Virus record (IMG/VR): IMGVR_UViG_3300010354_000340
Location: 1-32,073 of that record
DNA length: 32,073 nt
Origin: a virus
Reading direction: 5' to 3' (one strand)
The notes beneath the pieces are model-generated. The model saw only the letters and a list, made by a program, of their open reading frames with translations. It did not search any database and was not told the origin of the DNA. The position numbers and the translations under genes are program-made. Position 1 is the first letter of the stretch; each line of letters begins with the position of its first letter. Below are positions 19,630-32,073 of this stretch, piece after piece.

Positions 19630-20073
19630 ATGTGGAATTTAAATTCGCAAGAACGTCTTGCTGAATGGAAAACTTTTAGACAACAATTAAATAACCATCC
19701 GCCAGAACAAGCATTAGAAAAAATTTGTTCTTTGTGGAGTTATGTTCCTTATGTTGACCATTATTTAGATCGAGTGCCGCCACAAAAATGGCCCGGTCCA
19801 TGGGAATTAATTTGGAATAATCACTATTGTGATCTTGCAAGAGCTCTCGGAATGTTGTATACTTGGGAGTTCACTGATCATGCTAAAAATTATAATTCAG
19901 AATTAAAAATTTATCACGATCATAAAAATAATCAACGGGTAAACTGTTTTTGTGTTTACCCGGGCGAATATGTGCTAAATTTATCTTACAATACAGTACT
20001 AAAAAAACATTCTTTTAATTCAGCCTACGAGTTGATACATACATATCCATCCAGCAAATTGATTGAAATTTAA
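19630..20073 (+). CDS. Hypothetical protein upstream of nrdA
   Basis: 147 residues, rich in W, Y and H (WPGPWELIWNNHYCDLARALGML; YHDHKNNQRVNCF). The C-terminal half is beta-rich. No family recognised; I have the impression of similar proteins in marine T4-like phages. It lies 10 nt after the fibre gene and 8 nt before nrdA, so it may belong to the reductase operon. The ATG at 19630 has no clear RBS. Confidence 0.7.
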   Translation: MWNLNSQERLAEWKTFRQQLNNHPPEQALEKICSLWSYVPYVDHYLDRVPPQKWPGPWELIWNNHYCDLARALGMLYTWEFTDHAKNYNSELKIYHDHKNNQRVNCFCVYPGEYVLNLSYNTVLKKHSFNSAYELIHTYPSSKLIEI

Positions 20074-20081
20074 GAGGTCAA

Positions 20082-22391
20082 ATGAATAAAACTATATCTG
20101 TTATAAAAAGAAATGGAACCAGAGAATTACTAGACATTGAAAAAATACATAAGGTCTTAGAGTGGGCCACTGAAGACCTAACTAATACTAGTGTAAGTGA
20201 TATCGAGATGAAAAGTCATTTACAATTTTATGATGGCATTACTACTGACGAAATTCATAATATTATTACCTATGCATCCGAAGGTTTAATTAAACAAGAA
20301 TACAACTATCAATATGTAGCTGCTCGTTTGGCATTGTTTCATCTAAGAAAAAAGGTTTTGGGACAATACGAACCTATTCACATTCGAGATCTGGTTACAA
20401 AAAATATTCAATTACGTGTATATGATGCCAATTTATTGAGTTATTATTCAACCGAAGAATGGGATAGAATCAATGGGTTTTTAGATCATAAGCGTGATTA
20501 TCGTTTGACTATTGCCGCGGTTAAACAAGCAATGGACAAATATCTTGTCAAGGATAGAACTTCGGGTCAAATTTACGAAACACCTCAATATGCTTTTATG
20601 TTAATTGCTGCGGTGATGTTTAAAAATTATCCACGCGAAACAAGATTGAATTATGTTAAGGATTTCTATGATGCAATTACCAAATTTCAAATTAGTTTGC
20701 CAACTCCTATCTTGGCCGGTGTTCGAACCATTACTAAGCAGTTTAGCAGTTGTGTGCTTATCGATGTTGACGACAACTTAGATAGTATCGGAGATGCTGC
20801 TACTGCGATCATGAAATATGGTGCCAAACGAGCCGGAATTGGCGTAAATGGTGGCCGAATTCGTGCAGTAAAGAGCAAAATTCGTGGCGGAGAAGTCAGT
20901 CATACAGGTGTTATACACTATTACCGTAAATTTGAAAGTAGTTTAAAATGTTGTAGTCAAGGCGGTATACGTGATGCTGCTATGACCTTATATGTTCCAG
21001 TTTGGCATCTTGAAATCGAAGACATTATTGTACTTAAAAATAATAAGGGAACACCGGATAATCGTGTTCGAAAAATTGATTATGGAGTACAATGGGACAC
21101 CTATTTGATACGTCGAGCTATTGCTAAAAAACCGATCACCTTGTTTAGCCCACACGATGTTACAGATCTATACGAGGCTTATTTTAAAGGTGATCGACAA
21201 GAGTTTGAATCTCTTTACGAAAAATACGAAGCTGATCCTAACATTCGTAAAAAACAAGTTCCCGGGCGTGAATTGTTGGAACTATTTTTGAAAGAGCGAC
21301 AAGAAACTGCTCGTATCTACAGTTTCATGGCTGATCATGTTAATACACATAGTCCTTTCAAACTGCCGATATTTCAAAGTAATCTCTGTGCCGAAATCGC
21401 ACTACCAACTCGACCTATTCGTAATGCAATTGATGTTGCAGAAGGGAAAATTGATTTCGAGGGGTGGATACAACTTTGTACCCTAAGTGCTATAAATCTC
21501 GGTACATTACGTAATTTACAGGATCTCGAAAAGCGTATGAATTTGTTAGTTCGTGGATTAAATGAAATTCTTGATTATCAAGATTATCCCATACCACAAG
21601 CTCAGATTGCTACAATGTTATTTCGTCCATTAGGCATCGGTGTTATTAATTATGCTTACTGGTTAGCCAAGCAGGGAATGACCTATAATGACCAAGCCGG
21701 ACATGATGCTACCCATCGATTAGCTGAGGCTATGTATTATTATGCTCTAAAAGCTTCTGTGGATTTAGCAGAGGAACGTGGAGCTATCCCTGGACTCAAA
21801 GATACTATCTATGCTGATGGTGGTTTAATGATTGATAATTATTGCCAAGAAGTTGATAAGGTAGTTACTGTTGGTCTAGAATTAGATTGGGAATCTCTAA
21901 GAGATCGTGTAAAGAAATATGGTGTTCGTAATGCTACACTTTTGGCTCTAATGCCTAGTGAAAGTAGTAGTATTATGAGTAACGCTACCAATGGTATAGA
22001 ACCGATACGTAGTTTAGTTACAGAAAAGAGTAATAAAAATACTAGTTTTGTACAAGTAGCACCCGATGCAAATCGTTTACGTAATCAATATGATTATCTT
22101 TGGGATATGAGACCTGACCATTTTGACGGGTATTTAAAAAACATGGCCATATTCCAAAAATTTGTTTGTCAAAGTATTAGCACTAATACTTCGTACAACC
22201 CCGAGCATTTTTCCGATGATAAAATTTCTTTACAAGTACTAATGAATCACTTTATACTTGCAGCTAAATTGGGAGTTAAAACTCTCTACTATGCAAACAC
22301 CAAAGGTCTCGATGAAGCCAAAGATGATCCTCTTAAAGACAGCACAGAGGAAATTGAGGATTTGGCCGATTGTGACGCATGTAAAATTTAA
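20082..22391 (+). CDS. nrdA: Ribonucleoside-diphosphate reductase alpha subunit (class Ia)
   Basis: 769 residues (T4 NrdA 754). Reduces ribonucleoside diphosphates to deoxy forms for phage DNA synthesis with NrdB and a thiol donor. An ATP-cone spans about residues 4-95 (VIKRNGTRELLDIEKI). Active-site cysteines appear in order: SSCVLID near 222, the thiyl site NLCAEIALP near 437 with the following Glu, and QLCTLSAINLG near 463. The C-terminal CDACKI (C764, C767) is the relay pair that glutaredoxin reduces. An AGAGG Shine-Dalgarno precedes the ATG; nrdC follows by 9 nt. Confidence 0.97.
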   Translation: MNKTISVIKRNGTRELLDIEKIHKVLEWATEDLTNTSVSDIEMKSHLQFYDGITTDEIHNIITYASEGLIKQEYNYQYVAARLALFHLRKKVLGQYEPIHIRDLVTKNIQLRVYDANLLSYYSTEEWDRINGFLDHKRDYRLTIAAVKQAMDKYLVKDRTSGQIYETPQYAFMLIAAVMFKNYPRETRLNYVKDFYDAITKFQISLPTPILAGVRTITKQFSSCVLIDVDDNLDSIGDAATAIMKYGAKRAGIGVNGGRIRAVKSKIRGGEVSHTGVIHYYRKFESSLKCCSQGGIRDAAMTLYVPVWHLEIEDIIVLKNNKGTPDNRVRKIDYGVQWDTYLIRRAIAKKPITLFSPHDVTDLYEAYFKGDRQEFESLYEKYEADPNIRKKQVPGRELLELFLKERQETARIYSFMADHVNTHSPFKLPIFQSNLCAEIALPTRPIRNAIDVAEGKIDFEGWIQLCTLSAINLGTLRNLQDLEKRMNLLVRGLNEILDYQDYPIPQAQIATMLFRPLGIGVINYAYWLAKQGMTYNDQAGHDATHRLAEAMYYYALKASVDLAEERGAIPGLKDTIYADGGLMIDNYCQEVDKVVTVGLELDWESLRDRVKKYGVRNATLLALMPSESSSIMSNATNGIEPIRSLVTEKSNKNTSFVQVAPDANRLRNQYDYLWDMRPDHFDGYLKNMAIFQKFVCQSISTNTSYNPEHFSDDKISLQVLMNHFILAAKLGVKTLYYANTKGLDEAKDDPLKDSTEEIEDLADCDACKI

Positions 22392-22400
22392 GGAATTTTT

Positions 22401-22655
22401 ATGATTACTGTTTATGGGAAACCTGGTTGCAGTTTTTGCGAACAGGCTAAAATGTTAAGCACCAGTCAGGGTCTAACATATAATTATATCGAATTGGATG
22501 TCGGTCAACCTAAAAAATTAGATGGAGAATATATTTCTCGCGAAGACTTTATGATGCTATTTCCTGATGCACGTACAGTCCCTCAAATTCTCGTTGACGA
22601 TATCCATGTAGGTGGATACCAAGAATTTAAACAATACTTAAAGGAATCGAAATGA
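22401..22655 (+). CDS. nrdC: Glutaredoxin
   Basis: 84 residues, a minimal glutaredoxin with the redox pair C10-S-F-C13 after a YGKPG loop, a TVPQILVDD cis-proline segment and a VGGYQEF end. It would recycle the C-terminal cysteines of NrdA, matching its position between the two reductase subunits. AAGGAA precedes the ATG. Its stop overlaps the nrdB start (ATGA at 22652-22655), indicating coupled translation. Confidence 0.94.
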   Translation: MITVYGKPGCSFCEQAKMLSTSQGLTYNYIELDVGQPKKLDGEYISREDFMMLFPDARTVPQILVDDIHVGGYQEFKQYLKESK

Positions 22656-23734
22656 CTGTTTTTAATAATAAACCCGTAGACCCTAGCAGTCAATATATGT
22701 TTTTTGGTGAACAACTAGGTTCAGCTCGATATGACAAAATTAAAAATCCAATCTTTGAAAAATTAACAAGAACACAAAATAGTTTTTTTTGGCAACCTGA
22801 AGAAATTAGTCTTACAAAAGATCATGCCGATTTTAAAGATCTTAGTGCTGCCGAAAGACATATCTTCACTAAAAACATTAGCTATCAAATTTTATTAGAT
22901 AGTGTACAGGAAAGAAGTCCGGTATTGGCATTTTTGCCATGGGTTAGTAGTCCTGAGTTAGAACCTTGCATTCTAACTTGGAGTTATTTCGAAGCTATTC
23001 ATGCTCGTAGTTATCAATACATCTTACAAAATGTATTCAATGATCCTACACAGATATTTGATAGTATTACACTAGATAAAGAAATTATGAAACGTTCTGA
23101 ATCAGTGACCAAATACTACGACGATTTTATCGACTATTCAAATCAATATCGTAACGGTAATGGCAGTCTATCGACTCTAAAAGAAAAGTTTTTTCTAGCT
23201 TTGATTAGTGTCTATGTATTAGAATCGATTCGATTTTATGTTAGTTTTGCCTGTAGTTTTAGTTTTGCTCAGTTGGGTAAGATGACCGGCAATGGACGAA
23301 TTATTAAATTAATTGCCAGAGACGAAAGTCAACATATGGGCATTACTATGAATATCATTCGTCTTTATCAAAGAGGAAAGGATGATCCCGAAATGACTGT
23401 AATTGCTCAACGACTAGAACCTATGATAGAAGAAATATTTGAAGAAGCTATTGAACAAGAACGTCAATGGGCAAAATATTTGTTTAAGGATGGTAGTATT
23501 CTTGGCCTCAATGAGGAATTACTTTGCCAATATGTAGAACATATAGCAGGTAAAAGAATGAAAGCAGTTGGATTAAAAAATCGTTACGAAAAAACTGTTA
23601 ATCCTTTTACATGGATGAATCAATGGTTAGAAGGAGAAACTACTCAAGTTGCTCCTCAGGAAGCCGAAATTGTCGATTATCGAATTGGCAGTATCGACAG
23701 CAATGTCAACGAAGAAGAACTTATCTCACTTTAA
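22652..23734 (+). CDS. nrdB: Ribonucleoside-diphosphate reductase beta subunit (class Ia)
   Basis: 360 residues. Carries the diiron-tyrosyl radical centre: the Asp in SYQILLDSVQ, then E, H and the radical Tyr in FEAIHARSYQY, Glu in VYVLESIRFY, and E and H in RDESQHMG, all in the order of E. coli NrdB. The C-terminal tail (IGSIDSNVNEEELISL) is of the type that docks on NrdA. No intein or intron interrupts it. AAAGGAA precedes the ATG, which overlaps the nrdC stop. Confidence 0.96.
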   Translation: MTVFNNKPVDPSSQYMFFGEQLGSARYDKIKNPIFEKLTRTQNSFFWQPEEISLTKDHADFKDLSAAERHIFTKNISYQILLDSVQERSPVLAFLPWVSSPELEPCILTWSYFEAIHARSYQYILQNVFNDPTQIFDSITLDKEIMKRSESVTKYYDDFIDYSNQYRNGNGSLSTLKEKFFLALISVYVLESIRFYVSFACSFSFAQLGKMTGNGRIIKLIARDESQHMGITMNIIRLYQRGKDDPEMTVIAQRLEPMIEEIFEEAIEQERQWAKYLFKDGSILGLNEELLCQYVEHIAGKRMKAVGLKNRYEKTVNPFTWMNQWLEGETTQVAPQEAEIVDYRIGSIDSNVNEEELISL

Positions 23735-23742
23735 GGAACACT

Positions 23743-24051
23743 ATGTTACTCGAAAAAATTCAAACTAATGAAGTATATTGTTTTAAACTGGTCAATGGCG
23801 ATGAGGTTATTGCTAGACTAGAGTCGTCTGATAACGATAATTTTACTTTAAACAAACCCACTACTCTTGTGCCCAGTTCACAAGGGATTGGGCTTATGCA
23901 AAGTATGATTGCTATGAAGCAGGACTCAACCGTTAAAGTATCAAGAAGCCATATTATTATGTATTCGGAAGTAGATCCTAGAATGAGAGATCATTACATT
24001 CAGACTACTACAGGTATACAGCCTGTAACTAAGGACAAAATTATTATCTAG
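23743..24051 (+). CDS. Small Lsm-like beta-barrel protein of marine T4-like phages
   Basis: 102 residues from the ATG at 23743 (AAGGAAC, 4 nt upstream of ATG region). VYCFKLVNGDEVIARLES (residues 10-27) has the strand pattern of the Sm-like fold, with a TLVPSSQGIGLMQSMI middle and TTTGIQPVTKDKI tail. I recall this protein as conserved but unnamed in cyanophages, also near nrdB. Role unknown; RNA binding or oligomer formation could fit the fold. A longer reading through the nrdB end was rejected because the good RBS is here. Confidence 0.72.
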   Translation: MLLEKIQTNEVYCFKLVNGDEVIARLESSDNDNFTLNKPTTLVPSSQGIGLMQSMIAMKQDSTVKVSRSHIIMYSEVDPRMRDHYIQTTTGIQPVTKDKIII

Positions 24052-24060
24052 TATAAATAT
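24051..24060 (+). promoter_or_regulatory. T4-type late promoter
   Basis: GTATAAATAT, identical to the boxes at 15307 and 25485, 44 nt before the ATG of the PAAR gene. It starts on the last base of the upstream stop codon. Confidence 0.8.
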
Positions 24061-24062
24061 TT

Positions 24063-24088
24063 TAGTCGGTAGGTTGAATTGCCGACTA
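24063..24088 (+). other. Leader hairpin between late promoter and PAAR gene
   Basis: TAGTCGG (24063-24069) pairs perfectly with CCGACTA (24082-24088) around a 12-nt loop, followed by TTTTA. It could be the terminator of the nrd operon or a 5'-end structure of the late PAAR transcript. The weak T tract makes termination uncertain. Confidence 0.45.
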
Positions 24089-24104
24089 TTTTAAAAGTCT
24101 AATC

Positions 24105-24413
24105 ATGCCAGGTCGAGCTCGTTTAGGTGATAGTGTGTCAGGAACATGTTATAGTCACAAGTCTGCTCAGTCAGTGACTGGAACTATTAACTCGGCCTCC
24201 TCAGACATAAAAATAAACAATATTTTAGTTGCTCGAAAGGGTGATACAGTAGCGTTAAGCTGTGGTCACGGAGGAGTTATTACAGGATCTTCCCCAGATG
24301 TAAAATCAAATAATCAATTGGTAGCACGATTAGGCGATGCTGTTTCTGGAGCCACTGGTGTTAATTTTGTAGGATCAATTACATCGGCTTCGGAAGATGT
24401 AATTGCAAATTAA
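24105..24413 (+). CDS. PAAR-repeat spike-tip protein (gp5.4-like)
   Basis: 102 residues forming the pointed cap on the baseplate spike, which pierces the outer membrane. PAAR-type repeats are seen: PGRARLGDSVSG at the start, VARKGDTVALSCGHGG in the middle and LVARLGDAVSG later, with the repeated ARxGD core and Cys/His residues that bind the tip metal. Length fits the T4 gp5.4 class. It follows a late promoter and is late expressed. The start codon has no obvious Shine-Dalgarno. Confidence 0.9.
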   Translation: MPGRARLGDSVSGTCYSHKSAQSVTGTINSASSDIKINNILVARKGDTVALSCGHGGVITGSSPDVKSNNQLVARLGDAVSGATGVNFVGSITSASEDVIAN

Positions 24414-24425
24414 AAGGAGTTTTCC

Positions 24426-24641
24426 ATGAATGTACAAGATTTAGAAAACTTCGTTCATAACGAAGACGAAGTAGATATCGAGGATGGAGATTTTGGTATA
24501 ATAATTACACCAGATGGAAAACTTAAAATGTTGTTAATGCCGGATGATTTAGATGGCCCAGACGAAGTACCGGATATACTAGCAAAAATAGTAAGCTTGT
24601 TTGAAAACAACAATTTAGGTTCAGTTAGAACTCTTCATTAA
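24426..24641 (+). CDS. Small acidic protein
   Basis: 71 residues, very acidic (many D and E, for example NEDEVDIEDGDFG), with a beta hairpin FGIIITPDGKLKMLLMPDD and a short helix (VPDILAKIVSLF). I recall similar short acidic proteins in cyanophages. A strong AAAGGAG precedes the ATG. It shares the late transcript of the PAAR gene and ends at the bidirectional terminator. Possible roles are a chaperone or an inhibitor; none is shown. Confidence 0.7.
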   Translation: MNVQDLENFVHNEDEVDIEDGDFGIIITPDGKLKMLLMPDDLDGPDEVPDILAKIVSLFENNNLGSVRTLH

Positions 24642-24645
24642 AGAA

Positions 24646-24672
24646 AAACCGCCCCGAAGGGCGGTTTGTATT
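24646..24672. terminator. Bidirectional terminator between convergent genes
   Basis: Perfect 9-bp stem AAACCGCCC / GGGCGGTTT. Plus strand loop is CGAA with a following TATTTTT tail; on the minus strand the loop is TTCG and the tail continues as TTTTTC. It serves the acidic gene from the left and the GIY-YIG gene from the right. Confidence 0.9.
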
Positions 24673-24686
24673 TTTATAAATTAGTT

Positions 24687-25013
24687 TTAGAAAGTATTTA
24701 GAATCGGATTGTAAGCACGAATCAACTCGCGTTCGCGAGCATGAGCAGTCAATCGACCACGAACAACTTCTAGTATACCATACACATGAGCTTCAGCACC
24801 ATGCTCACGTAGGCTGCGGCACAAAGCCCAATCTTTGTTTTCAGTCAATGCACGACGCAGATGTTTCTGCATACGGACTTTCAGAGCAGCACGAAGGTTA
24901 CCTGATGCAACAGTGATGCCCACGTACTGTTCTTTGGTTACAGTATTGGTGATCACGTAAACTGCGTGGTTGCAGTCGTTGCGGCGTTTGCGGGTGCTAG
25001 TGCGGCGTTTCAT
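24687..25013 (-). CDS. GIY-YIG-type nuclease, compact
   Basis: 108 residues from the ATG at 25013. A basic start (MKRRTSTRKRR) leads to a GIY-YIG core: AVY at 17-19 and Y30-V-G32, then R47 in KVRMQKH and E94/E96 with YNPILN at the end, which correspond to the catalytic Arg, Glu and Asn of the family. No separate DNA-binding domain exists, so it may be a mini homing-type or repair endonuclease. Base composition is very G+C rich (34 of 60 in 24961-25020) against its neighbours, and it has its own promoter and terminator, marking it as a late-acquired moron gene. Confidence 0.82.
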   Translation of the reverse strand: MKRRTSTRKRRNDCNHAVYVITNTVTKEQYVGITVASGNLRAALKVRMQKHLRRALTENKDWALCRSLREHGAEAHVYGILEVVRGRLTAHARERELIRAYNPILNTF

Positions 25014-25022
25014 AGTGTTAGT

Positions 25023-25051
25023 ATTATAGCAAAGGTCAATATTTAGGTCAA
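25023..25051 (-). promoter_or_regulatory. Sigma70-type promoter for the GIY-YIG gene
   Basis: Read on the minus strand: TTGACC (25051-25046), a 17-nt spacer and TATAAT (25028-25023), preceded by TG (extended -10). The ATG at 25013 is 9 nt after the -10 box, so the leader is only about 3 nt. Confidence 0.82.
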
Positions 25052-25085
25052 CCGAAATTTGTTGTAAAAAAGCCACAAAATTAGG

Positions 25086-25114
25086 TTGACTTTGGCTAAA
25101 AAATACCGTAAAAT
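25086..25114 (+). promoter_or_regulatory. Divergent sigma70-type promoter for the deaminase
   Basis: TTGACT at 25086-25091, a 17-nt spacer and TAAAAT at 25109-25114. Predicted start near 25121, leader about 36 nt without a clear Shine-Dalgarno. It points away from the GIY-YIG promoter, with 34 nt between the two -35 boxes. Confidence 0.65.
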
Positions 25115-25156
25115 CATGTCTTTACACCTCAAAATTTGTTGTTTTTTCGCGACATT

Positions 25157-25462
25157 ATGTCCACGAAACAAAAAATTATTGCTACAGTTTACGATCGCCG
25201 CGGCCGTGTGCTCAGTGTCGGTACCAACAGTTATGAAAAAACTCATCCCCGACAGGCGTTTCTTGCTAAAAAAGTAGGTATGCCCGAACGGCAATATCTT
25301 CATGCCGAAATAAGTGCATTAGTTAAATGTCGCGGGAAGCCCTATCGTATTCATATAGAACGGCGAAATACTCAAGGTCGATTACAATTGGCCAAACCCT
25401 GTCCGATTTGTGAATTAGCTATAAAAGAGGCTGGAGTTAAGTTTGTTGAGTATTCTATATAA
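25157..25462 (+). CDS. Minimal zinc cytidine/dCMP deaminase-like protein
   Basis: 101 residues, short for the family. Zinc motifs are present: H49-A-E51 and P81-C82-P-I-C85, spaced by 30 residues. The family deaminates cytidine, dCMP or bases in nucleic acid; here a role in dUMP supply for thymidylate synthesis is plausible, substrate unknown. Upstream in-frame TTG at 25136 is possible, but the ATG at 25157 gives the natural MSTKQK start. It is transcribed away from the GIY-YIG gene; the sigma70/late promoter of HSP20 begins right after its stop. Confidence 0.82.
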   Translation: MSTKQKIIATVYDRRGRVLSVGTNSYEKTHPRQAFLAKKVGMPERQYLHAEISALVKCRGKPYRIHIERRNTQGRLQLAKPCPICELAIKEAGVKFVEYSI

Positions 25463-25494
25463 TTGACAAACTCAATGATATTTTGTATAAATAT
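25463..25494 (+). promoter_or_regulatory. Overlapping sigma70 and T4-type late promoter
   Basis: TTGACA at 25463-25468 and TATAAA at 25486-25491 with a 17-nt spacer form a sigma70-type promoter. The same -10 lies inside GTATAAATAT (25485-25494), the late-promoter 10-mer found twice elsewhere. It would allow both early and late expression of HSP20. Confidence 0.75.
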
Positions 25495-25556
25495 ATTTGT
25501 ATGCAATGCCTACTCAGGGTTCATACATTGTCATTCGCTTAATAAAGGAGAAAAAA

Positions 25557-25994
25557 ATGACACGATTAACAACTCTCGATCTCGCACCTTTCACTCGTCA
25601 CTCAGTTGGATTTGATCGACTATTTGAGCAAATGGATCGACATTTTGCTAACAGTGCAGGAAATGGATATCCTCCATATAATATCGTTCAACTTAACGAA
25701 GATGAGTACTTGATTACTTTAGCAGTTGCTGGGTTCTCAATGAAAGACCTAGAGATCACTAAAGATGGCAATATTCTAAACGTCGAAGGAGAGATCCAAA
25801 AATCCGAGGAGGATTCTGTAAACTATCTACACAAAGGTATTGCAGGACGTAATTTTCGTCGTCAATTTACACTAGCTGATTATGTAGAGGTAGAAAAGGC
25901 GACCCTGGATCTTGGGATGTTACATATTCATCTTAAGCGTTATATTCCAGAAGAAAAACAACCGAAGAAAATTGCTATTACATTAGGTAATTAA
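25557..25994 (+). CDS. hsp20: Small heat-shock protein, HSP20 family
   Basis: 145 residues. The alpha-crystallin domain covers about 38-130 (YNIVQLNEDEYLITLAVAGF, NILNVEGEI, IAGRNFRRQFTLADYVEVEKATLDLGMLHIHL), with the GMLHIHL strand typical of the family and a short C-terminal tail. It keeps aggregation-prone proteins folded; HSP20 is common in T4-like cyanophages. A strong AAAGGAG precedes the ATG at 25557; a longer reading from upstream lacks an RBS. Controlled by the overlapping early/late promoter, and followed by a terminator. Confidence 0.92.
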   Translation: MTRLTTLDLAPFTRHSVGFDRLFEQMDRHFANSAGNGYPPYNIVQLNEDEYLITLAVAGFSMKDLEITKDGNILNVEGEIQKSEEDSVNYLHKGIAGRNFRRQFTLADYVEVEKATLDLGMLHIHLKRYIPEEKQPKKIAITLGN

Positions 25995-26001
25995 ATAACC
26001 C

Positions 26002-26029
26002 GGGGTTGGGGATTTCCTCAACCCCTTTT
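26002..26029 (+). terminator. Rho-independent terminator after HSP20
   Basis: Stem GGGGTTGGGG / CCTCAACCCC (10 bp with one G-T pair) around ATTT, then TTTTA. It separates the HSP20 unit from the clpS unit. Confidence 0.8.
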
Positions 26030-26043
26030 ATATAGAGACAATA

Positions 26044-26370
26044 ATGACCGACGAAATTGATGTTCCAGTAAAAATTGATGACGCAGTAAAAACTAAAATT
26101 AAAACTCATATTAAAGAACCTCCTAAGTATAAAGTAATTTTTGTCAACGATGACAAAACTACTATGGAATTTGTTGTAGAAAGTTTAATGGAATACTTTA
26201 ACTATAACGAGTCAGACGCAGTTAATAAAACTCAAGAAATTCACGAAGAAGGCAGTAGTGTTGTGGCTATCTACAGTTATGAAATTGCCGAACAAAAGGG
26301 TATCGAAGTGACATTAGCAGCAAGAAGTCAAGGATATCCATTACAAATTCGAATTGAGGCTGAAGAATGA
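26044..26370 (+). CDS. clpS: ClpS-like protease adaptor
   Basis: 108 residues. ClpS delivers N-degron substrates to ClpA-type AAA+ proteases and blocks others. The core YKVIFVNDDKTTMEFV has the N-degron pocket residues N35, D36, D37 and the gatekeeper M41; H67 in EIHEEG also matches. The tail (ARSQGYPLQIRIEAE) matches the ClpS end. The first 27 residues form the flexible arm that contacts the ClpA N-domain. All key residues are kept, so it should be active on the host protease. It starts after the HSP20 terminator and is coupled to the next gene by ATGA. A weak GAGA precedes the ATG. Confidence 0.9.
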   Translation: MTDEIDVPVKIDDAVKTKIKTHIKEPPKYKVIFVNDDKTTMEFVVESLMEYFNYNESDAVNKTQEIHEEGSSVVAIYSYEIAEQKGIEVTLAARSQGYPLQIRIEAEE

Positions 26371-26822
26371 TTTTCGACCATTTAAAAACTTTGCAAGGCA
26401 AAGAAATAGGATTCACATGTAGCAGTTTCGATTTATTGCATGCCGGGCATGTGGCTATGTTAGCCGAAGCACGTAGTTATTGTGATTATCTAATTGCCGG
26501 ATTACAAATCGATCCAACGATTGATCGACCAGAGAAAAATTTTCCTGTACAAAGTATCGTTGAACGACAAATTCAATTAGCCGGTGTTCGTTATGTTGAC
26601 GAAATTATTGTGTATAATACTGAGAGAGATTTAGAAAATTTGTTAAAAATTCTTCCTATTACGATGCGTATTTTAGGTGTTGAATATCGAGAAAAAGAAT
26701 TTACCGGTAAACAACTTTGTATCGATAGAGGAATTAAAATTCAATTTAATTCAAGAGAACATGATTATAGTACTTCTGAATTAAGAAAACGTATCGCTAC
26801 ACTAGACAAAGATACAGAATAA
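26367..26822 (+). CDS. Cytidylyltransferase-type nucleotidyltransferase
   Basis: 151 residues of the HxGH superfamily (glycerol-3-phosphate or similar cytidylyltransferases, or adenylyltransferases). Visible: FDLLHAGHVAML with H25-A-G-H28 and the YSTSELRKRI (about 134-143) motif that positions the nucleotide phosphate. Substrate cannot be told from the sequence; a sugar- or lipid-head activation role fits the UDP-glucuronate decarboxylase downstream. It overlaps clpS by 4 nt (ATGA). Confidence 0.8.
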   Translation: MIFDHLKTLQGKEIGFTCSSFDLLHAGHVAMLAEARSYCDYLIAGLQIDPTIDRPEKNFPVQSIVERQIQLAGVRYVDEIIVYNTERDLENLLKILPITMRILGVEYREKEFTGKQLCIDRGIKIQFNSREHDYSTSELRKRIATLDKDTE

Positions 26823-26827
26823 AATTT

Positions 26828-27385
26828 ATGCAAGCAGTTATGATCGACCTGGAGACACTGAGTGTTACTCCAGAAAGTGTAATTCTCACCTTAGCAGCAG
26901 TTAAATTCAATCCTCACAATACGGTTGGTGTCACTGATAAATTATATCATAAACTTGATGTAGATGAACAAATACAATCCGGTAGAGAAATAAATGACGA
27001 TACCCTTGCTTGGTGGTCGCGTCAGCCTGCAGAAGTGTATAACGATGCAATGACAGAGCATGATCGTATATCGGTTGAGAAAAGTTTACAAGAATTAACT
27101 AAGTTTTTGGTCGGTGTTAACGATATTTGGTGTCAGGGCCCGGTATTTGATATCGTTATATTGGAGAATATATACAGACAACATCAAATGCATTTTCCTT
27201 GGCAATATTGGCAAATCAAAGATAGTAGAACATTATTTGGTTTTTTAAACTTTGATCCAAGAAAAGAAATACGATCAAGGGATTCTAAGGCTCATCATAA
27301 TGCCTTAGATGATGCTATCACTCAGGCAATGGCAGTGCAACAATGCTATAAAAAATTAAAAAATAGTAACATTTCGAACGGATGA
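26828..27385 (+). CDS. dexA: DEDDh 3'-5' exonuclease, DexA-like
   Basis: 185 residues (T4 DexA 227). RNase T/oligoribonuclease-like fold with the ExoI motif MIDLETLSV (D and E at residues 7 and 9), the ExoII-region WCQGPVFDIVILENIY (D near 108) and the ExoIII HHNALDDAITQ (H and D near 157-162). A WWSRQPAEV segment resembles the T4 DexA WW..Q motif. It degrades single-stranded DNA, RNA or oligonucleotide ends. It follows the cytidylyltransferase by 5 nt and has no clear RBS. Confidence 0.82.
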   Translation: MQAVMIDLETLSVTPESVILTLAAVKFNPHNTVGVTDKLYHKLDVDEQIQSGREINDDTLAWWSRQPAEVYNDAMTEHDRISVEKSLQELTKFLVGVNDIWCQGPVFDIVILENIYRQHQMHFPWQYWQIKDSRTLFGFLNFDPRKEIRSRDSKAHHNALDDAITQAMAVQQCYKKLKNSNISNG

Positions 27386-27394
27386 ATTCGTCGG

Positions 27395-27409
27395 CTATTT
27401 AATAAATAG
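27395..27409. repeat. Perfect 15-bp palindrome in an intergenic gap
   Basis: CTATTTA-A-TAAATAG reads the same on both strands around a central A. It contains AATAAATA, one mismatch from the late box, and lies 7 nt before the ATG at 27417. It could be an operator or a late promoter variant; chance in AT-rich sequence is possible. Confidence 0.45.
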
Positions 27410-27416
27410 TTTTACG

Positions 27417-28133
27417 ATGAATAATTTTGACTGTTATAACAGAGTTTTAATTTCAGCATTTGCTGCTAGTAACAAACAAAAAGAGTTTATAACTCGTAAA
27501 TATCAACTTTTACACGAAGTATACAACTATCACAGTATAAATCCTAAATCGGAATTATATCTAGGATTTAATCCGGCTATGATTTATAATTCTTCTTCCA
27601 AATCTTATGTATATGGTATTGACCCACAGGATTTTATTTACTTAAAAAATCATAACAATTCTTTAATAAGAATTGATAGTTTGGACCAATTACCATCAGC
27701 AGTTGATTCGATCATCAGTGGCGACGAATTTTTTACTTTTATGGATCACGAAACAGAACAGAGATCTTTTTTATCTGAATGTAGAAAATATGTTTCCCGT
27801 ATAGTAGTAACAACTCTAAGAGATTACAAAAATCAAGATTTCAAAGATAAAGAATTTAGTTTTCCCTCAATAATCGATCATAATGGACCTAAAATTTATT
27901 TAGAATATCACAATCATGACGGCAAATTAAAAAACCAATGGGCAACTAACATCTACGAAATCAATGGGACAAATTTAACTATACACGGACCATTTGATCG
28001 CAAAGCAGTTTACTTTAAACAATTAGCTAAATTTACTAACGATGCTGGATTTAGCGATTTTGTTGTTCATAAAAACCTCATGTATAAAAGCATAATTCGT
28101 AAAAATTACGAACATGTAATCAGTTTCAGTTAA
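27417..28133 (+). CDS. Hypothetical protein
   Basis: 238 residues. Not recognised. Mixed alpha/beta with [12 protein letters not shown] (46-60), [10 protein letters not shown] and [12 protein letters not shown] stretches; the hydrophobic strand followed by acidic loops recalls a Rossmann-like fold but no SAM or nucleotide motif is present. It follows the palindrome by 7 nt with no Shine-Dalgarno. The next gene (UXS) starts 25 nt later and may be co-transcribed. Confidence 0.68.
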
Positions 28134-28158
28134 ATACTTCATCTTAATTCAATATAAA

Positions 28159-29091
28159 ATGAAAAAAATTCTAGTCACCGGCGGTGCCGGGTTTTTGGGT
28201 AGCCATCTTTGCGATCGTTTAGTTCAACAAGGGCATCATGTTCTCTGTATGGATAATTATTTCACTGGAACGAAAAAAAATATACAGCATCTATTAGATC
28301 ATAAAAATTTTGAAATTTTACGTCAAGATGTTTGTTTTCCGGTCTTTGTTGAAGTGGATGAAATTTATAATCTTGCCTGCCCCGCTAGTCCAGTTCATTA
28401 TCAACACGATCCAATTCAAACTGTAAAAACCAGTGTACTTGGAGCCTACAACATGTTAGGGTTAGCTAAAAGAACTGGAGCAAAAGTATTACAAACTAGT
28501 ACTAGTGAAGTGTATGGTGATCCAACAGTTCATCCTCAATCTGAAGAATATTGGGGAAATGTTAATCCTATAGGTCCTCGTAGTTGTTATGATGAGGGTA
28601 AACGTGCCGCAGAGACATTGTTTTTTGATTACCATAGACAACACAAAGTAAGAATTAAAGTAGCAAGAATTTTCAATACCTATGGTCCTAGAATGGCATT
28701 AAATGATGGTAGAGTAGTTAGTAATTTTGTTGTTCAAGCATTGACCGGACAAGATATTACTGTATATGGCGAAGGACTTCAGACTCGAAGTTTTTGTTAT
28801 GTAGACGACCAAATTGATGGATTGATGAGATTAATGAATTCAGATGATTCAGTTACCGGTCCTATCAATATCGGTAATCCAGAAGAATTCACTATGATTA
28901 AATTAGCTCAACAGGTAATCGAGCTTACCGGTAGTAAATCTCAAATCATTCATTTGGATTTGCCTAAAGATGATCCTCGTCAAAGACGGCCCGATATTAC
29001 ACGAGCACAAACTATATTAAATTGGCAACCCACTGTGGATTTGGATACTGGATTAGTTAAAACTATTGACTATTTTAAAAGTATCTTGTAA
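28159..29091 (+). CDS. UDP-glucuronate decarboxylase-like SDR enzyme
   Basis: 310 residues, extended short-chain dehydrogenase/reductase. GGAGFLG (G8xxG11xxG14) binds NAD; the catalytic set is T115-S116-E117 and Y144-x3-K148. The stretch [20 protein letters not shown] is the signature of UDP-xylose synthase (UXS), which makes UDP-xylose from UDP-glucuronate. Length is close to the soluble bacterial enzymes. In phages such genes modify host surface glycans or phage DNA, so the role here is open. It has no clear Shine-Dalgarno; AT-rich spacer precedes the ATG. Confidence 0.85.
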
Positions 29092-29094
29092 AAT
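29066..29094 (+). promoter_or_regulatory. Sigma70-type promoter giving a leaderless mRNA
   Basis: TTGACT at 29066-29071, a 17-nt spacer and TAAAAT at 29089-29094. The ATG at 29101 is 7 nt after the -10 box. It lies over the end of the UXS-like gene. An alternative TATAAT at 29094-29099 would have a 22-nt spacer and is less likely. Confidence 0.6.
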
Positions 29095-29100
29095 ATAATT

Positions 29101-29325
29101 ATGAATGATATTGAAATCGTTATTCAAGAGAGTACCCCTCAACCGGTACTAACTGTGACAACGGACCGAAATATTACATTTAATATCGAAGGTGAAGAAT
29201 ATCTTCGAATTTCAGAAACAGGATTTTTTGTTCGCGGTGAGCAGATCGCACCCGATAGTAAAGAAGCCGAACAAGTTTATAACGCATTCAAACAATGGTT
29301 AGTATGGTCACACCTCGTAAAATAG
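29101..29325 (+). CDS. Small conserved phage protein
   Basis: 74 residues with a beta-hairpin pattern (VLTVTTDRNITFNIEGEEYLRISETG) and GFFVRGEQIA before a C-terminal helix (AYNAFKQWLVW). I recall proteins of this type in cyanophages, of unknown role and found near structural genes. It has its own predicted leaderless start and overlaps the next gene. Confidence 0.68.
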   Translation: MNDIEIVIQESTPQPVLTVTTDRNITFNIEGEEYLRISETGFFVRGEQIAPDSKEAEQVYNAFKQWLVWSHLVK

Positions 29326-29576
29326 TCTTAAAGTTTCGTCCACAAGACCGCAATCGTCGTCGTTGGTTAAAATGGCATCGCGAATCCGGCGAATACTATG
29401 GGTTATACAATTGGCAACAAAACTACAGTGAACGAATGTGGCGTAAAATGAAATGGCCTGGTTACTATAGAATAGGTCATCATTTACAATATTTGGCTCA
29501 ACATGCTCCACGAAATATTCGTGTAAAATGGTTGCCGGCTTGGCGTCGTTTTGTTAAACAATATCGCAAATACTAA
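29304..29576 (+). CDS. Small very basic protein
   Basis: 90 residues from the ATG at 29304 (an earlier ATG at 29295 adds three residues). Rich in R, K and W: DRNRRRWLKWHRESGEY and MWRKMKWPGYYRIGHH. Predicted helical and positively charged, so nucleic-acid binding is likely by composition. It overlaps the end of the preceding gene by 22 nt, and the GIY-YIG-like gene starts 15 nt after its stop. No function assigned. Confidence 0.62.
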   Translation: MVTPRKIVLKFRPQDRNRRRWLKWHRESGEYYGLYNWQQNYSERMWRKMKWPGYYRIGHHLQYLAQHAPRNIRVKWLPAWRRFVKQYRKY

Positions 29577-29591
29577 TTTTTGGAATAACTC

Positions 29592-30095
29592 ATGTTTATT
29601 CACGATATGAAAGACGTCGGTTGGGAAAAAGTCTGCGATGTAAGAACAACTTATTATGGTAATTATTGGTATTATGTTAATATCAATAAAGACATAATGT
29701 TTTCTCCACATCAGAGTTGGATTTATGCTATAACTGATAATGAACAAATTGTAAAAATAGGCGAGAGTGGCAATCCCTTGGGTATTAGATATAAAAGATT
29801 TGATAGTAATTTTCCAGAGTCACAACCACAAATAGGTACAAAATGTAGGCTAGGGCGATATCGTAAAAACGGGGATTCTGATCAAACGATCAGAGAATAT
29901 TTACGTCGAGAAGCTGCAAATAATCAAATAGCAATTTATGCATATAAATGTCCTAATTTTGAAATACCAATATCCATTGGTGGTAAAGAAAAAATAGTAC
30001 AATCTACAATACATAAGCATCTAGAAAAAGTTATTTTAGATTTTATCGCGGAAAAAGACGGTCGTTATCCTTGGTTAAATTGCGGAAGGTATTAA
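29592..30095 (+). CDS. GIY-YIG-like nuclease domain protein
   Basis: 167 residues. Residues 43-66 carry the GIY-YIG pattern in diverged form: W43-I-Y45, then V54-K-I-G57 and ESGNPLGIRYKR, with R66 as the catalytic Arg candidate. A basic helix (GRYRKNGDSDQTIREYLRREAAN) follows and Glu-containing HLEKVILDFIAEK near the end could hold the metal ligand. The first 40 residues are an extra beta-rich region. It is related in fold to, but not close in sequence to, the GIY-YIG gene at 24687. Weak RBS (TTTGGA). Homing, repair or restriction-like functions are possible. Confidence 0.68.
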   Translation: MFIHDMKDVGWEKVCDVRTTYYGNYWYYVNINKDIMFSPHQSWIYAITDNEQIVKIGESGNPLGIRYKRFDSNFPESQPQIGTKCRLGRYRKNGDSDQTIREYLRREAANNQIAIYAYKCPNFEIPISIGGKEKIVQSTIHKHLEKVILDFIAEKDGRYPWLNCGRY

Positions 30096-30107
30096 AAATT
30101 ATCTGAT

Positions 30108-31286
30108 ATGAAAAAAATTGCTATAATTGGGTCTGGCATTACTGGTATTATGGCCGCTTATTATCTGGCTCGTTCAGGCTATCAAGTCGAAGTATATGAA
30201 CAAGAACGACACGCTGCGATGCGAACCAGTTATGCCAATGGAGGACAAATTTCAGTTAGCAACAGCGAAGTTTGGACTACCTGGGGTAATGTTCAAAAAG
30301 GAATCCGGTGGATGTTTACAAAAGATGCTCCTTTATTGATCCGTCCAACCCCAGAAGTGGATAAAGTACGTTGGCTATCCAAATTTCTATTAGAAACCTT
30401 TTTCAAAACTTATGCTCGTAATACCGCAGAAACAATCGAATTGGGGTTAGCCTCAAGGAATCTATATCAAGATATCATTCAAAAAGAAAATATCGAATTT
30501 GATTATAGTCAGTGCGGTATTCTGCATTTTTATCGTGATGCAAAATATTTCAGAAATGCTCAATCAGTGCAGGAACTTTATCGTGCCAATGGCTGCGAAT
30601 GGGAAATTTTAAGGGCTGATCAAATTCAAGACTTGGATCCAGCTTTGAATAATCTTTCTGATACCATTGGTGGAGCATGGACCAAAACCGATTCGGTCGG
30701 CGATATACATAAATTTTGCCATCAATTACAACACGTATTAGAAACTCGATACCAAGTTAAATTTCATTTCGAACACGAAATTGATAAAACGGAATTAAAT
30801 CGGTTGCTTGATAAAAATGATCGTGTTATAATTTCAGCTGGAGTAGGTTCTGCGAAACTAGCAAAACACATTGGCGATCGTTTGGATATATATCCAGTCA
30901 AGGGGTATAGTGTGACTATTACAATAAGGCCAGACCAGATGAATTTAGTTCCAAAGGTTAGTCTACTAGATGATGAAGCAAAAATTGTAACTAGTACATT
31001 AGGGAACAGATTTCGTGTAGCCGGTACCGCCGAACTTGCAGGTGAAAATTATGATATCAGGAGAGATCGTGTCGACCCTTTGTTAAAATGGATACACAAG
31101 AATTTTCCCAAATTGGATACTAGTAACTATTCTAGTTGGGCATGTTTAAGGCCGATGACGCCAAATATGATGCCGATAATTAAAGTCAGTGATAAAAACT
31201 CTAAAGTAATTTATCATACTGGGCACGGGCATCTAGGTTGGACAATTAGTCCAGCAACTGCTGTTCGTTTATTAAATCTAATTTAA
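30108..31286 (+). CDS. dadA: D-amino-acid dehydrogenase-like FAD oxidoreductase
   Basis: 392 residues. The Rossmann start IIGSGITGIMAAYYLARSG (G8xG10xxG13) with E31 binds FAD. DadA-type features: RTSYANGGQISVSNSE, KWMFTKDAPLLIRPTP-like pattern, YPVKGYSVTITI and C-terminal LRPMTPNMMPII ... HTGHGHLGWTISPATA, in order and spacing of the bacterial enzyme. DadA oxidises D-amino acids (mainly D-alanine) to 2-keto acids with a quinone acceptor. Length is slightly below the bacterial form (about 432). Rare in phages: it could use D-alanine released from host peptidoglycan. It starts 12 nt after the GIY-YIG-like gene and ends 8 nt before UvdE. Confidence 0.9.
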   Translation: MKKIAIIGSGITGIMAAYYLARSGYQVEVYEQERHAAMRTSYANGGQISVSNSEVWTTWGNVQKGIRWMFTKDAPLLIRPTPEVDKVRWLSKFLLETFFKTYARNTAETIELGLASRNLYQDIIQKENIEFDYSQCGILHFYRDAKYFRNAQSVQELYRANGCEWEILRADQIQDLDPALNNLSDTIGGAWTKTDSVGDIHKFCHQLQHVLETRYQVKFHFEHEIDKTELNRLLDKNDRVIISAGVGSAKLAKHIGDRLDIYPVKGYSVTITIRPDQMNLVPKVSLLDDEAKIVTSTLGNRFRVAGTAELAGENYDIRRDRVDPLLKWIHKNFPKLDTSNYSSWACLRPMTPNMMPIIKVSDKNSKVIYHTGHGHLGWTISPATAVRLLNLI

Positions 31287-31294
31287 TTTTAAAA

Positions 31295-32073
31295 ATGCCA
31301 AAAATTGGTTTTGCTTGCAAATGGATCGACCGAGCCGATCAGGTTGACGGCATCGGTCCTAAGGATGAGTGTAAAAAGTATAATACCGGAGCCACTACAG
31401 TGGCCTGGTTAAATAGACAAACAAGAGAGGTAGCGGAACAACGACTATGGGACTTAATGAAACACAATATCGAATCGACAAGACTGTTGGTTCAACGAGT
31501 AGGAGAGTTAGATAATGGACTTCGGATGGTACGTCTTTCAAGCGACATTCTTCCTGTTTATACTGAGTCTAGCTGGTGCTACTTTTGGCAGCTACCTGAT
31601 GTTAAAAGATATGCGGAAGGGGCTTTTGCCGAGGTCGGAAGGTTGGCTAGGGATCGTGGTGTTCGGCTTAGCTTTCATCCTGGCCAGTTCACTGTGCTTG
31701 CTAGTGATAATCCTGAAATTGTTGAACGTAGTATAGAGGAGTTTGAATATCATGCTACAATGGCCGCTTGGATGGGGTTTGCCCAGAGATTTCAAGACTT
31801 TAAAATCAATGTCCACATCGCGGGTCGAGCCGGTCCAACCGGTATCCGACAAGCCTATTCGAGACTCAGTCCAGAAGCCCGTAACACCATTACCGTCGAA
31901 AACGAGGAAATAAGTTATGGATTGGATGATTGTCTCAGTCTTGCTGACATTGTTCCTACTGTGCTCGATATACATCATCATTGGTGTCGTGAAGGGGTAT
32001 ACATTGACCCAACTAGCGACAGCGTTAAAAGAGTGGTGGATAGTTGGCGTGGTGTTCGTCCTGCTATGCATTA
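31295..32073 (+). CDS. uvdE: UV damage endonuclease UvdE, partial (3' end beyond window)
   Basis: Open from ATG at 31295 to the window edge: 259 codons seen, no stop. TIM-barrel repair nuclease that nicks DNA 5' of UV lesions. PKIGFACKWI start; metal ligands: H128 in SFHPGQF, E202 in VENEE and the H227-H228-H229 of DIHHHW, with VHIAGRAG between. Bacterial UvsE is about 280-300 residues, so most of the protein is present. It is more G+C rich (34 of 60 in 31621-31680) than most neighbours, which suggests transfer. Two other reading frames over this gene (one membrane-like) are rejected as shadows. No clear RBS. Confidence 0.92.
   Translation, partial: MPKIGFACKWIDRADQVDGIGPKDECKKYNTGATTVAWLNRQTREVAEQRLWDLMKHNIESTRLLVQRVGELDNGLRMVRLSSDILPVYTESSWCYFWQLPDVKRYAEGAFAEVGRLARDRGVRLSFHPGQFTVLASDNPEIVERSIEEFEYHATMAAWMGFAQRFQDFKINVHIAGRAGPTGIRQAYSRLSPEARNTITVENEEISYGLDDCLSLADIVPTVLDIHHHWCREGVYIDPTSDSVKRVVDSWRGVRPAMH

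Follow-up and report, generated by a model that had tools for sequence, protein, structure and literature searches.

What does a phage do with a ClpS gene, and which protease would the product serve? The gene considered here lies in the window, the whole stretch of viral DNA that was analysed (32,073 nucleotides, positions 1 to 32,073 of IMG/VR record IMGVR_UViG_3300010354_000340). Phage ClpS has been proposed to bring targets to host ClpAP (PMC7824862), Agrobacterium phage Atu_ph07 has ClpX, ClpA, ClpB, a Clp proteolytic subunit, ClpS and DnaJ (PMC6102473), and DnaK, DnaJ, HSP20 and ClpA occur among large aquatic phages (PMC12619734). The reading preferred here, with a probability of roughly 0.6, is that the phage ClpS would be an adaptor for ClpA-ClpP, serving N-degron and probably aggregate substrates, within a thermoregulated HSP20-ClpS heat-shock cassette. 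The sequences supply a predicted ClpS fold with its clamp residues, conserved synteny, a covarying RNA element, and ClpA-like, ClpP, ClpX and DnaK genes in relatives. The features of the locus are as follows.

25486..25493, + strand: TATAAATA, a word resembling the late promoters of T4-type phages, 63 bases ahead of where HSP20 begins (weak, by position only)
25493..25562, + strand: candidate ROSE-like RNA thermometer element, from the HSP20 5'UTR into the start codon (R2 match, covariation)
25498..25527, + strand: hairpin I, with a bulged G (25508) and its loop at 25512-25515 (MFE fold, covariation)
25535..25550, + strand: UCGCU anti-Shine-Dalgarno (25535-25539) facing the AAGGAG Shine-Dalgarno (25545-25550) (motif conservation)
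25557..25994, + strand: small heat-shock protein of 145 aa, HSP20 / IbpA-like (59.4 bits to Pfam HSP20, whose cut-off is 20.8)
26002..26025, + strand: hairpin resembling a terminator, in the gap from HSP20 to ClpS, with TTTTATAT after it (folding)
26044..26370, + strand: ClpS, 108 aa, ATG start, the same open reading frame as in the sequence-only reading
26044..26115, + strand: N-terminal extension of ClpS, codons 1-24 (predicted disordered)

The sequence-only reading had called the frame at 26044-26370 ClpS, and the identification holds. The product matches Pfam PF02617 (ClpS) at 92.8 bits (E 1.1e-26), above the family cut-off of 23, and its gap-free alignment with E. coli ClpS spans 95 residues (E 2.3e-15). 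Among the NCBIfam equivalog models for ClpS, ten also match, the best at 82.4 bits, but none of the ten reaches its cut-off (149 for the best model), and the protein is therefore assigned to the ClpS family and not to an NCBIfam equivalog. Its predicted structure has the ClpS fold, with a core of high confidence (mean pLDDT 87.7) that fits Caulobacter ClpS to 0.6 A (3gq0 and 3dnj). At the N-terminus, mean pLDDT is 47 for residues 1-10 and 58 for residues 11-20, and the first strand begins at residue 29. Compared with three close relatives (loci L002, L003 and L004), dN/dS is 0.155, 0.139 and 0.134 (Nei-Gojobori; dN 0.18-0.20, dS 1.1-1.5, the ratios being rough because dS exceeds 1), which points to purifying selection on the window gene.

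N35, D36, D37, M41 and H67 had been named as evidence of an intact N-degron pocket. All five are present and, by the gapless alignment, fall on the E. coli positions that were meant; in E. coli these positions bind N-degrons, and the amine clamp there is N34/D35/H66, corresponding to N35/D36/H67. The clamp portion of the claim stands: across 103 viral rows (the window and 102 IMG/VR loci) N35, D36 and H67 are each invariant, as are T39, V44, E80, E83, Q84, G86 and L100, and M41 is kept in 100. Position 37 is variable (D 57, N 26, E 17, S 2, T 1). In its hydrophobic portion the pocket is changed at two positions. T39, M41, V44 and L100 are kept and I66 replaces V, but F33 and T63 differ from E. 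coli. Position 33 is Y in 99 viral rows and F in 4, and position 63 is T in 102 and S in 1. By comparison, 92 Pseudomonadota rows, in which two genes or more appear in duplicate (L088/L113 and L089/L115) and which are named by the phylum or class of their source genomes, as are all bacterial groups here, have L 54, M 28 and I 10 at position 33 and M 88 and T 4 at position 63. By the gapless alignments these positions correspond to E. coli L32 and M62 and to Caulobacter I45 and M75, which line the pocket. A larger side chain on one side of the N-degron pocket, combined with a smaller, polar one on the other, suggests that the pocket is reshaped, so that N-degron preference may differ or be lost. 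T63 was rejected as a virus-only signature, given its presence in the four Pseudomonadota rows and the distribution in 27 Bacteroidota rows (T 11, A 11, S 4, V 1).

The viral proteins share with bacterial ClpS (E. coli, Caulobacter; PF02617) the common fold, the N/D/H clamp, the gatekeeper M41, a disordered N-terminal extension and the ClpA-facing residues. Unlike bacterial ClpS, the viral clade has Y/F33, T63, a YEIAEQKG stretch, KIKPN in most extensions and a variable D37; a gene other than clpA follows clpS in the window and in two relatives examined gene by gene. The KIKPN stretch covers residues 16-20; among the 47 dereplicated viral rows, its P occurs in 38 and its N in 40, while the window has KTKIK.

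The ClpA-facing residues could also serve a decoy or inhibitor, in which phage ClpS would occupy ClpA N-domains, block host ClpS and SsrA delivery, and so shield phage proteins while delivering no substrates. Neither E80 nor E83 varies, and position 85 is always K (98 rows) or R (5); E80 and K85 sit on E. coli E79 and K84, which contact ClpA. Two hydrophobic-pocket positions have meanwhile changed, and E. coli ClpS blocks SsrA substrates. A pure decoy, however, would not need the clamp, which is retained in 103 of 103 rows. The disordered N-terminal extension, a part of ClpS needed for substrate delivery, is also retained, and most of the 47 rows show a KIKPN-like stretch in it. A decoy is thus considered improbable, and an adaptor is preferred.

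The viral loci were chosen by ClpS alone. An IMG/VR scan with short ClpS peptides yielded at least 599 stretches, at least 597 of them confirmed, and the 80 best loci were taken forward; 22 more came from a second, alignment-based scan, for 102 viral loci in all. Many are near copies, and the window, the loci and two copies from contig G005 reduce to 47 rows at 90% core identity. A conserved-peptide scan of a genome collection for cellular homologues returned 4 loci only, and cellular ClpS were then drawn by other searches. In a ClpS tree of 134 rows, limited by few columns and a bootstrap that is not fully settled, the 47 viral rows together with L086 and L087 form one clade (support 98/93, stem 1.09), within which the window groups with L002, L004 and L005 (92/84). 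ClpS from PA5oct, Phosso and Vibrio phage 2.275.O lie outside the main viral clade on long branches, and their placement is unsure. The L086 and L087 contigs, which had been assigned to an actinobacterium and to a Bacteroidetes MAG, have a ClpS of the viral clade and probably come from phages.

It might be that clpS is an ordinary moron, acquired recently from a host and without a phage role, as host-like genes are common in phages. This explanation is already contradicted by the single viral clade with its long stem and its own signature residues, by purifying selection and by stable synteny; recent host transfer was rejected on the first of these grounds, and a moron is very improbable. Megablast with window positions 20000-32073 returned no match. 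ClpS matches were found in 16 phage records, of which four were viewed (PA5oct, Phosso, Vibrio 2.275.O and Acinetobacter). 'Acinetobacter phage MD-2021a' was rejected as a source of phage ClpS after one of its two records showed neighbours (rpiA, argC, clpA and aroF) that read as bacterial chromosome. Records under that name, and possibly also those under 'Pseudomonas phage Y7' (CAKLQF020000008.1, OQ572409.1), look like bacterial DNA.

The proposal that the upstream HSP20 forms a pair with ClpS is borne out well beyond the window. The window protein scores 139.5 bits against PHROG 432 and 136 bits against the IbpA model, below the latter's cut-off of 212; its start is taken as the ATG behind the Shine-Dalgarno, the list of open reading frames giving a longer TTG start at 25497. 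An HSP20 match occurs in all 102 viral ClpS loci, and in 100 of these it lies at most 600 bases upstream on the same strand (its end at -200 to +600 bases from the ClpS open frame; 723 in the other two). The window's other neighbours (a deaminase, an HldE-like protein and an exonuclease) are common to only 4 of the first 80 loci. A typical locus, L072, reads clpX, bS21, [ROSE-like] hsp20, clpS, ..., SprT-like, phasin-like, clpP. PA5oct has HSP20 followed by ClpS, in the order clpX, S21, hsp20, clpS with two genes between S21 and hsp20, and Phosso has a small heat-shock protein, thymidine kinase and ClpS; no HSP20 lies within 3 kb of ClpS in Vibrio phage 2.275.O. Among phages, HSP20 is far commoner than ClpS (508 versus 16 records): the 508 are out of 50,697 phage records, and 463 bear the name of a cyanobacterial phage. 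To our knowledge, phage HSP20 has no settled role.

Several other window genes flank the cassette. Upstream are genes for a PAAR-motif protein (24105-24413, + strand) and a GIY-YIG endonuclease (24687-25076, - strand). An HldE-like nucleotidyltransferase gene (26367-26822) overlaps the ClpS stop codon by ATGA, and 28159-29091 encodes a 310-aa protein that by eye resembles a nucleotide-sugar epimerase/decarboxylase. These last two are possible surface-sugar genes.

An RNA element that the sequence-only reading missed appears, from sequence comparison, to regulate the cassette at its HSP20 end. Leaders were taken from the window, L227 and 100 of the 102 viral loci, two with fewer than 100 bases before the start being dropped; U(U/C)GCU faces AAGGAG in all 102 sequences, and in 56 of 56 after dereplication. 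In an alignment of 76 distinct leaders, which was fitted to the structure and hence leans towards it, 94.3% of cells pair (80.5% in shuffles), 162 pair cells are doubly changed (33.5 in shuffles), and the covariation score is 0.414 (0.156 in shuffles). When the partners are slid by 1-3 columns, pairing falls to 40-54%. Changes on both sides are seen in all 11 pairs of hairpin I and in only one of the seven pairs of the Shine-Dalgarno helix, which consequently rests on conservation rather than covariation. Just 5' of the motif, 51 of 56 sequences carry a complement of at least 4 bases to the start-codon region (13.6 expected from shuffles).

Two models of the leader were used. R2, built without the window, L002 and L005 (L003 and L004 are in neither model), matches the window at 25493-25562 with 41.5 bits (E 2e-8) and L002-L005 with 37.7-56.5 bits; it has no match in 77 cellular ClpS loci (245 kb). 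R1, built from the 56 training sequences, was run on 100 of 103 sources (L096, L097 and L111 were left out) and matches before HSP20 in 98, training sequences included; it has no match in L017 and L081, both of which end about 450 bases upstream of clpS. Candidate promoters were rejected here. TATAAATA, which resembles a late promoter, occurs three times in the window against 5.4 expected by chance, and a sigma-70 promoter scan of 25300-27500 found fewer sites than in shuffles.

The viral element and the ROSE thermometers (RF02523, ROSE_3) both occupy an hsp20 5'UTR and have a hairpin I with a bulged G and U(U/C)GCU paired to the Shine-Dalgarno; hairpins, this pairing and the bulged G make up the ROSE motif as defined in the accessible text of PMC11182007. 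In contrast to ROSE_3, the element is viral, falls below the Rfam cut-off or is unmatched, and is also found on phage dnaK. Rfam ROSE_3 is the top match at the leader site in five of five relatives that were picked for clear hairpins (26.6-32.1 bits). The Rfam gathering score for ROSE (43) is reached by none of the matching HSP20 leaders (26.6-34.1 bits), and the window has no Rfam ROSE match at E up to 5, its only hit being a poor one to freshwater-2 (E 2.7). For this reason the element is termed 'ROSE-like'.

These Rfam scores could also be those of a general translational repressor element that responds to a protein or RNA target and is not a thermometer, an alternative that concerns the RNA only. 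So could the computed opening of the Shine-Dalgarno, which is modest: its mean unpaired fraction in the window is 0.275 at 15 C and 0.427 at 50 C, and the viral median goes from 0.251 to 0.369 over the same range. Set against this are the architecture, which fits ROSE in its hairpins, its U(U/C)GCU against the Shine-Dalgarno and its bulged G, and the presence of the element on two classic heat-shock genes, hsp20 and dnaK. A repressor of this kind is unlikely, and a thermometer remains the preferred function.

The element extends to named phages. Ten were fetched from the 40 listed of the 508 HSP20 records; Pseudomonas phage Y7 (unannotated, 'UNVERIFIED' and possibly bacterial; R1 match of 22.4 bits) was left out and PA5oct and Phosso were added, giving 11 loci, some of them (MbCM1, C48C1) with no recorded host. 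R1 matches at the HSP20 start in ten: Melnitz (49.6 bits), S-CRM01 (33.4), C48C1 (32.9), S-SRM01 (29.7), Phosso (29.6), MbCM1 (28.9), P-RSM1 (28.6), P-SSM4 (23.5), HTVC115P (23.2) and PA5oct (21.0, E 0.014). The S-SRM01 match overlaps the annotated HSP20 start, so that translation would have to begin in frame 51 bases downstream of it. In whole-record scans, nine of the eleven have one match each, at HSP20; the PA5oct match is lost under the stricter filters of that scan, and S-TIM5 has no match either at its HSP20 start or in the whole record. At E up to 1, Rfam ROSE_3 leaves nine of the 11 loci unmatched, matching only Melnitz (34.1) and C48C1 (26.8).

HSP20 is not the only gene with such a leader. 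Among 16 ClpS-carrying records (14 IMG/VR contigs, PA5oct and Phosso), all three that encode DnaK (G005, G012 and G013) have an R1 match just upstream of dnaK, and extra matches in L023 and L106 precede proteins reading as DnaK. The 524,565-base viral contig G005 carries two ROSE-like/HSP20/ClpS cassettes (L227 and L228), each with ClpP nearby, and its second cassette adjoins dnaK with a ROSE-like leader of its own. In G007 and G008 (L284 and L285), a second R1 match precedes a 91-aa protein identified by eye as phasin-like; a similar small phasin-like protein in L072 matches no Pfam or NCBIfam family. Weak further matches occur in G012 at 59871 (23.4 bits) and in G006 at 229329 (23.1 bits). 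A match in G016 (29.3 bits) was set aside as doubtful, since it precedes a 452-aa structural-looking protein and has no clean hairpin.

The lambda cIII element is a known phage RNA thermometer. SPbeta blyA has been called the second, and a Caudoviricetes sigma70 element was added with it (accessible text of PMC11182007). The viral element resembles these in being an RNA thermometer candidate in phage genomes; it differs in that blyA and sigma70 are of the fourU type and that the accessible text reports none on a phage heat-shock gene (PMC11182007). A literature search, with most subscription papers and all bioRxiv preprints outside its scope, yielded no description of a ROSE-like element ahead of phage hsp20 or dnaK, nor of the HSP20-ClpS pairing.

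ClpS may not share this control, because in the window the terminator-like hairpin separates the two genes (gap 25995-26043). Of 46 dereplicated loci, 45 form a hairpin of 6 bp or more after HSP20, only 5 of these with a T-run behind it (78 post-stop bases folded), while a TATAAT-like word comes right after the HSP20 stop in 33. That word stands at the very start of the gap in 30 of 41 HSP20-ClpS gaps, compared with 1 of 182 other gaps; the window's own gap does not contain it. The intergenic hairpin was rejected as special in itself, as a fold of -12 kcal/mol or lower occurs in 73 of the 182 other gaps, some of them HSP20 leaders themselves, as against 38 of the 41. The gap may combine a promoter for clpS with a 5' hairpin. 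Since the hairpins mostly have no T-run and are accompanied by the TATAAT-like word, ClpS may be transcribed from a promoter of its own or by read-through from HSP20. Its link to temperature is thus weaker than that of HSP20.

The protease partner was sought in larger relatives: 14 IMG/VR contigs chosen for size, plus PA5oct and Phosso. ClpP (Pfam PF00574, above cut-off) is encoded in all 16. Of the 102 viral loci, 72 have ClpP on the strand of ClpS and 1.1-4.2 kb downstream of it, as do 62 of the 70 whose downstream sequence reaches at least 5.5 kb. The one ClpP scanned scores 313.7 against the PRK00277 subfamily (cut-off 249) and 304.9 against TIGR00493, just short of 308.6. Clp_N open reading frames occur in ten of the 16 records (all seven IMG/VR contigs above 250 kb, G012, G017 and PA5oct) and are absent from Phosso (469 kb) and five contigs of 100-131 kb. 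In each of the 11 ClpA-like frames examined, an IGF-type loop accompanies two Walker A motifs. The best family for the two that were scanned is ClpA TIGR02639 (794 and 791 bits), below its cut-off of 993, hence the name 'ClpA-like'; the N-domain of one aligns with the E. coli ClpA N-domain at E 1.9e-18. A tblastn count with a ClpA-like protein (69 loci) was discarded, as identity is 23-26% in the 25 matches listed and the hits in the loci examined sit at the ClpX position. ClpX and DnaK are also encoded in relatives.

The sequence-only reading had the adaptor sending host proteins to ClpAP or competing with host ClpS. Use of the host machinery survives as one option but not as the sole one: with all seven contigs above 250 kb encoding ClpA-like protein and ClpP, the adaptor's partner in large relatives may itself be viral. 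For the window's phage, it is possible, at somewhat under even odds, that there is no protease partner of its own and that host ClpAP alone is used, which is compatible with the cassette explanation. ClpP was found neither in the window nor in the L002-L005 contigs, its four nearest, and clpS in this lineage has different neighbours (HldE-like, exonuclease), which recur in no more than 4 of the first 80 loci. However, all five ClpP-lacking records are fragments (10-32 kb, the window being a 32-kb one), and ClpP is present in 16 of 16 larger or named ClpS-phage records.

The preferred reading, an adaptor within a thermoregulated cassette, can be set out as a series of steps, and it is the binding, delivery and temperature steps, together with the switch between aggregate and SsrA substrates, that we infer. 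Warming would melt the HSP20 leader through the ROSE-like thermometer, allowing HSP20 to be translated and to hold unfolding proteins. ClpS, from the neighbouring gene, would turn ClpAP from SsrA-tagged substrates to those that are aggregated or bear an N-degron, a switch known from E. coli ClpS work. (The aggregate role of ClpS is cited in the accessible text of PMC6102473.) The protease would probably be the phage's own ClpA-like protein and ClpP in large relatives, and may be host ClpAP in the window's phage.

Phage ClpS alone is already published, as is ClpA, a ClpP-like protein and ClpS together in one jumbo phage. Like the window, Atu_ph07 and other jumbo phages carry ClpS (PMC6102473, PMC7824862); they differ from the viruses described here, which have a large viral ClpS clade, a stable HSP20-ClpS synteny and a ROSE-like 5'UTR, an RNA thermometer being unmentioned in the accessible text of those two papers. 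The HSP20-ClpS cassette with its ROSE-like leader, together with the viral ClpA-like/ClpP set in relatives, adds a variation on this that is open to direct testing. Tentatively, and with rather less assurance than for the cassette, it may be that jumbo and T4-like phages carry a heat-shock regulon in which hsp20-clpS, dnaK and a phasin-like gene, each behind a ROSE-like thermometer of one type, feed a phage ClpA-ClpP-ClpS system with a retuned N-degron pocket.

These viruses may therefore bring their own heat-responsive protein quality control. If so, they would gain a temperature-gated protein quality-control kit, and phage HSP20 would become directly testable through its 5'UTR. Bench tests are possible in those carriers of the element that have a recorded host, for example Melnitz, S-CRM01, P-SSM4, Phosso and, weakly, P. 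aeruginosa phage PA5oct. There would also be a simple RNA-level reason for infections to respond to warming and, if the regulon exists, infection would stay productive, or change course, as the water warms.
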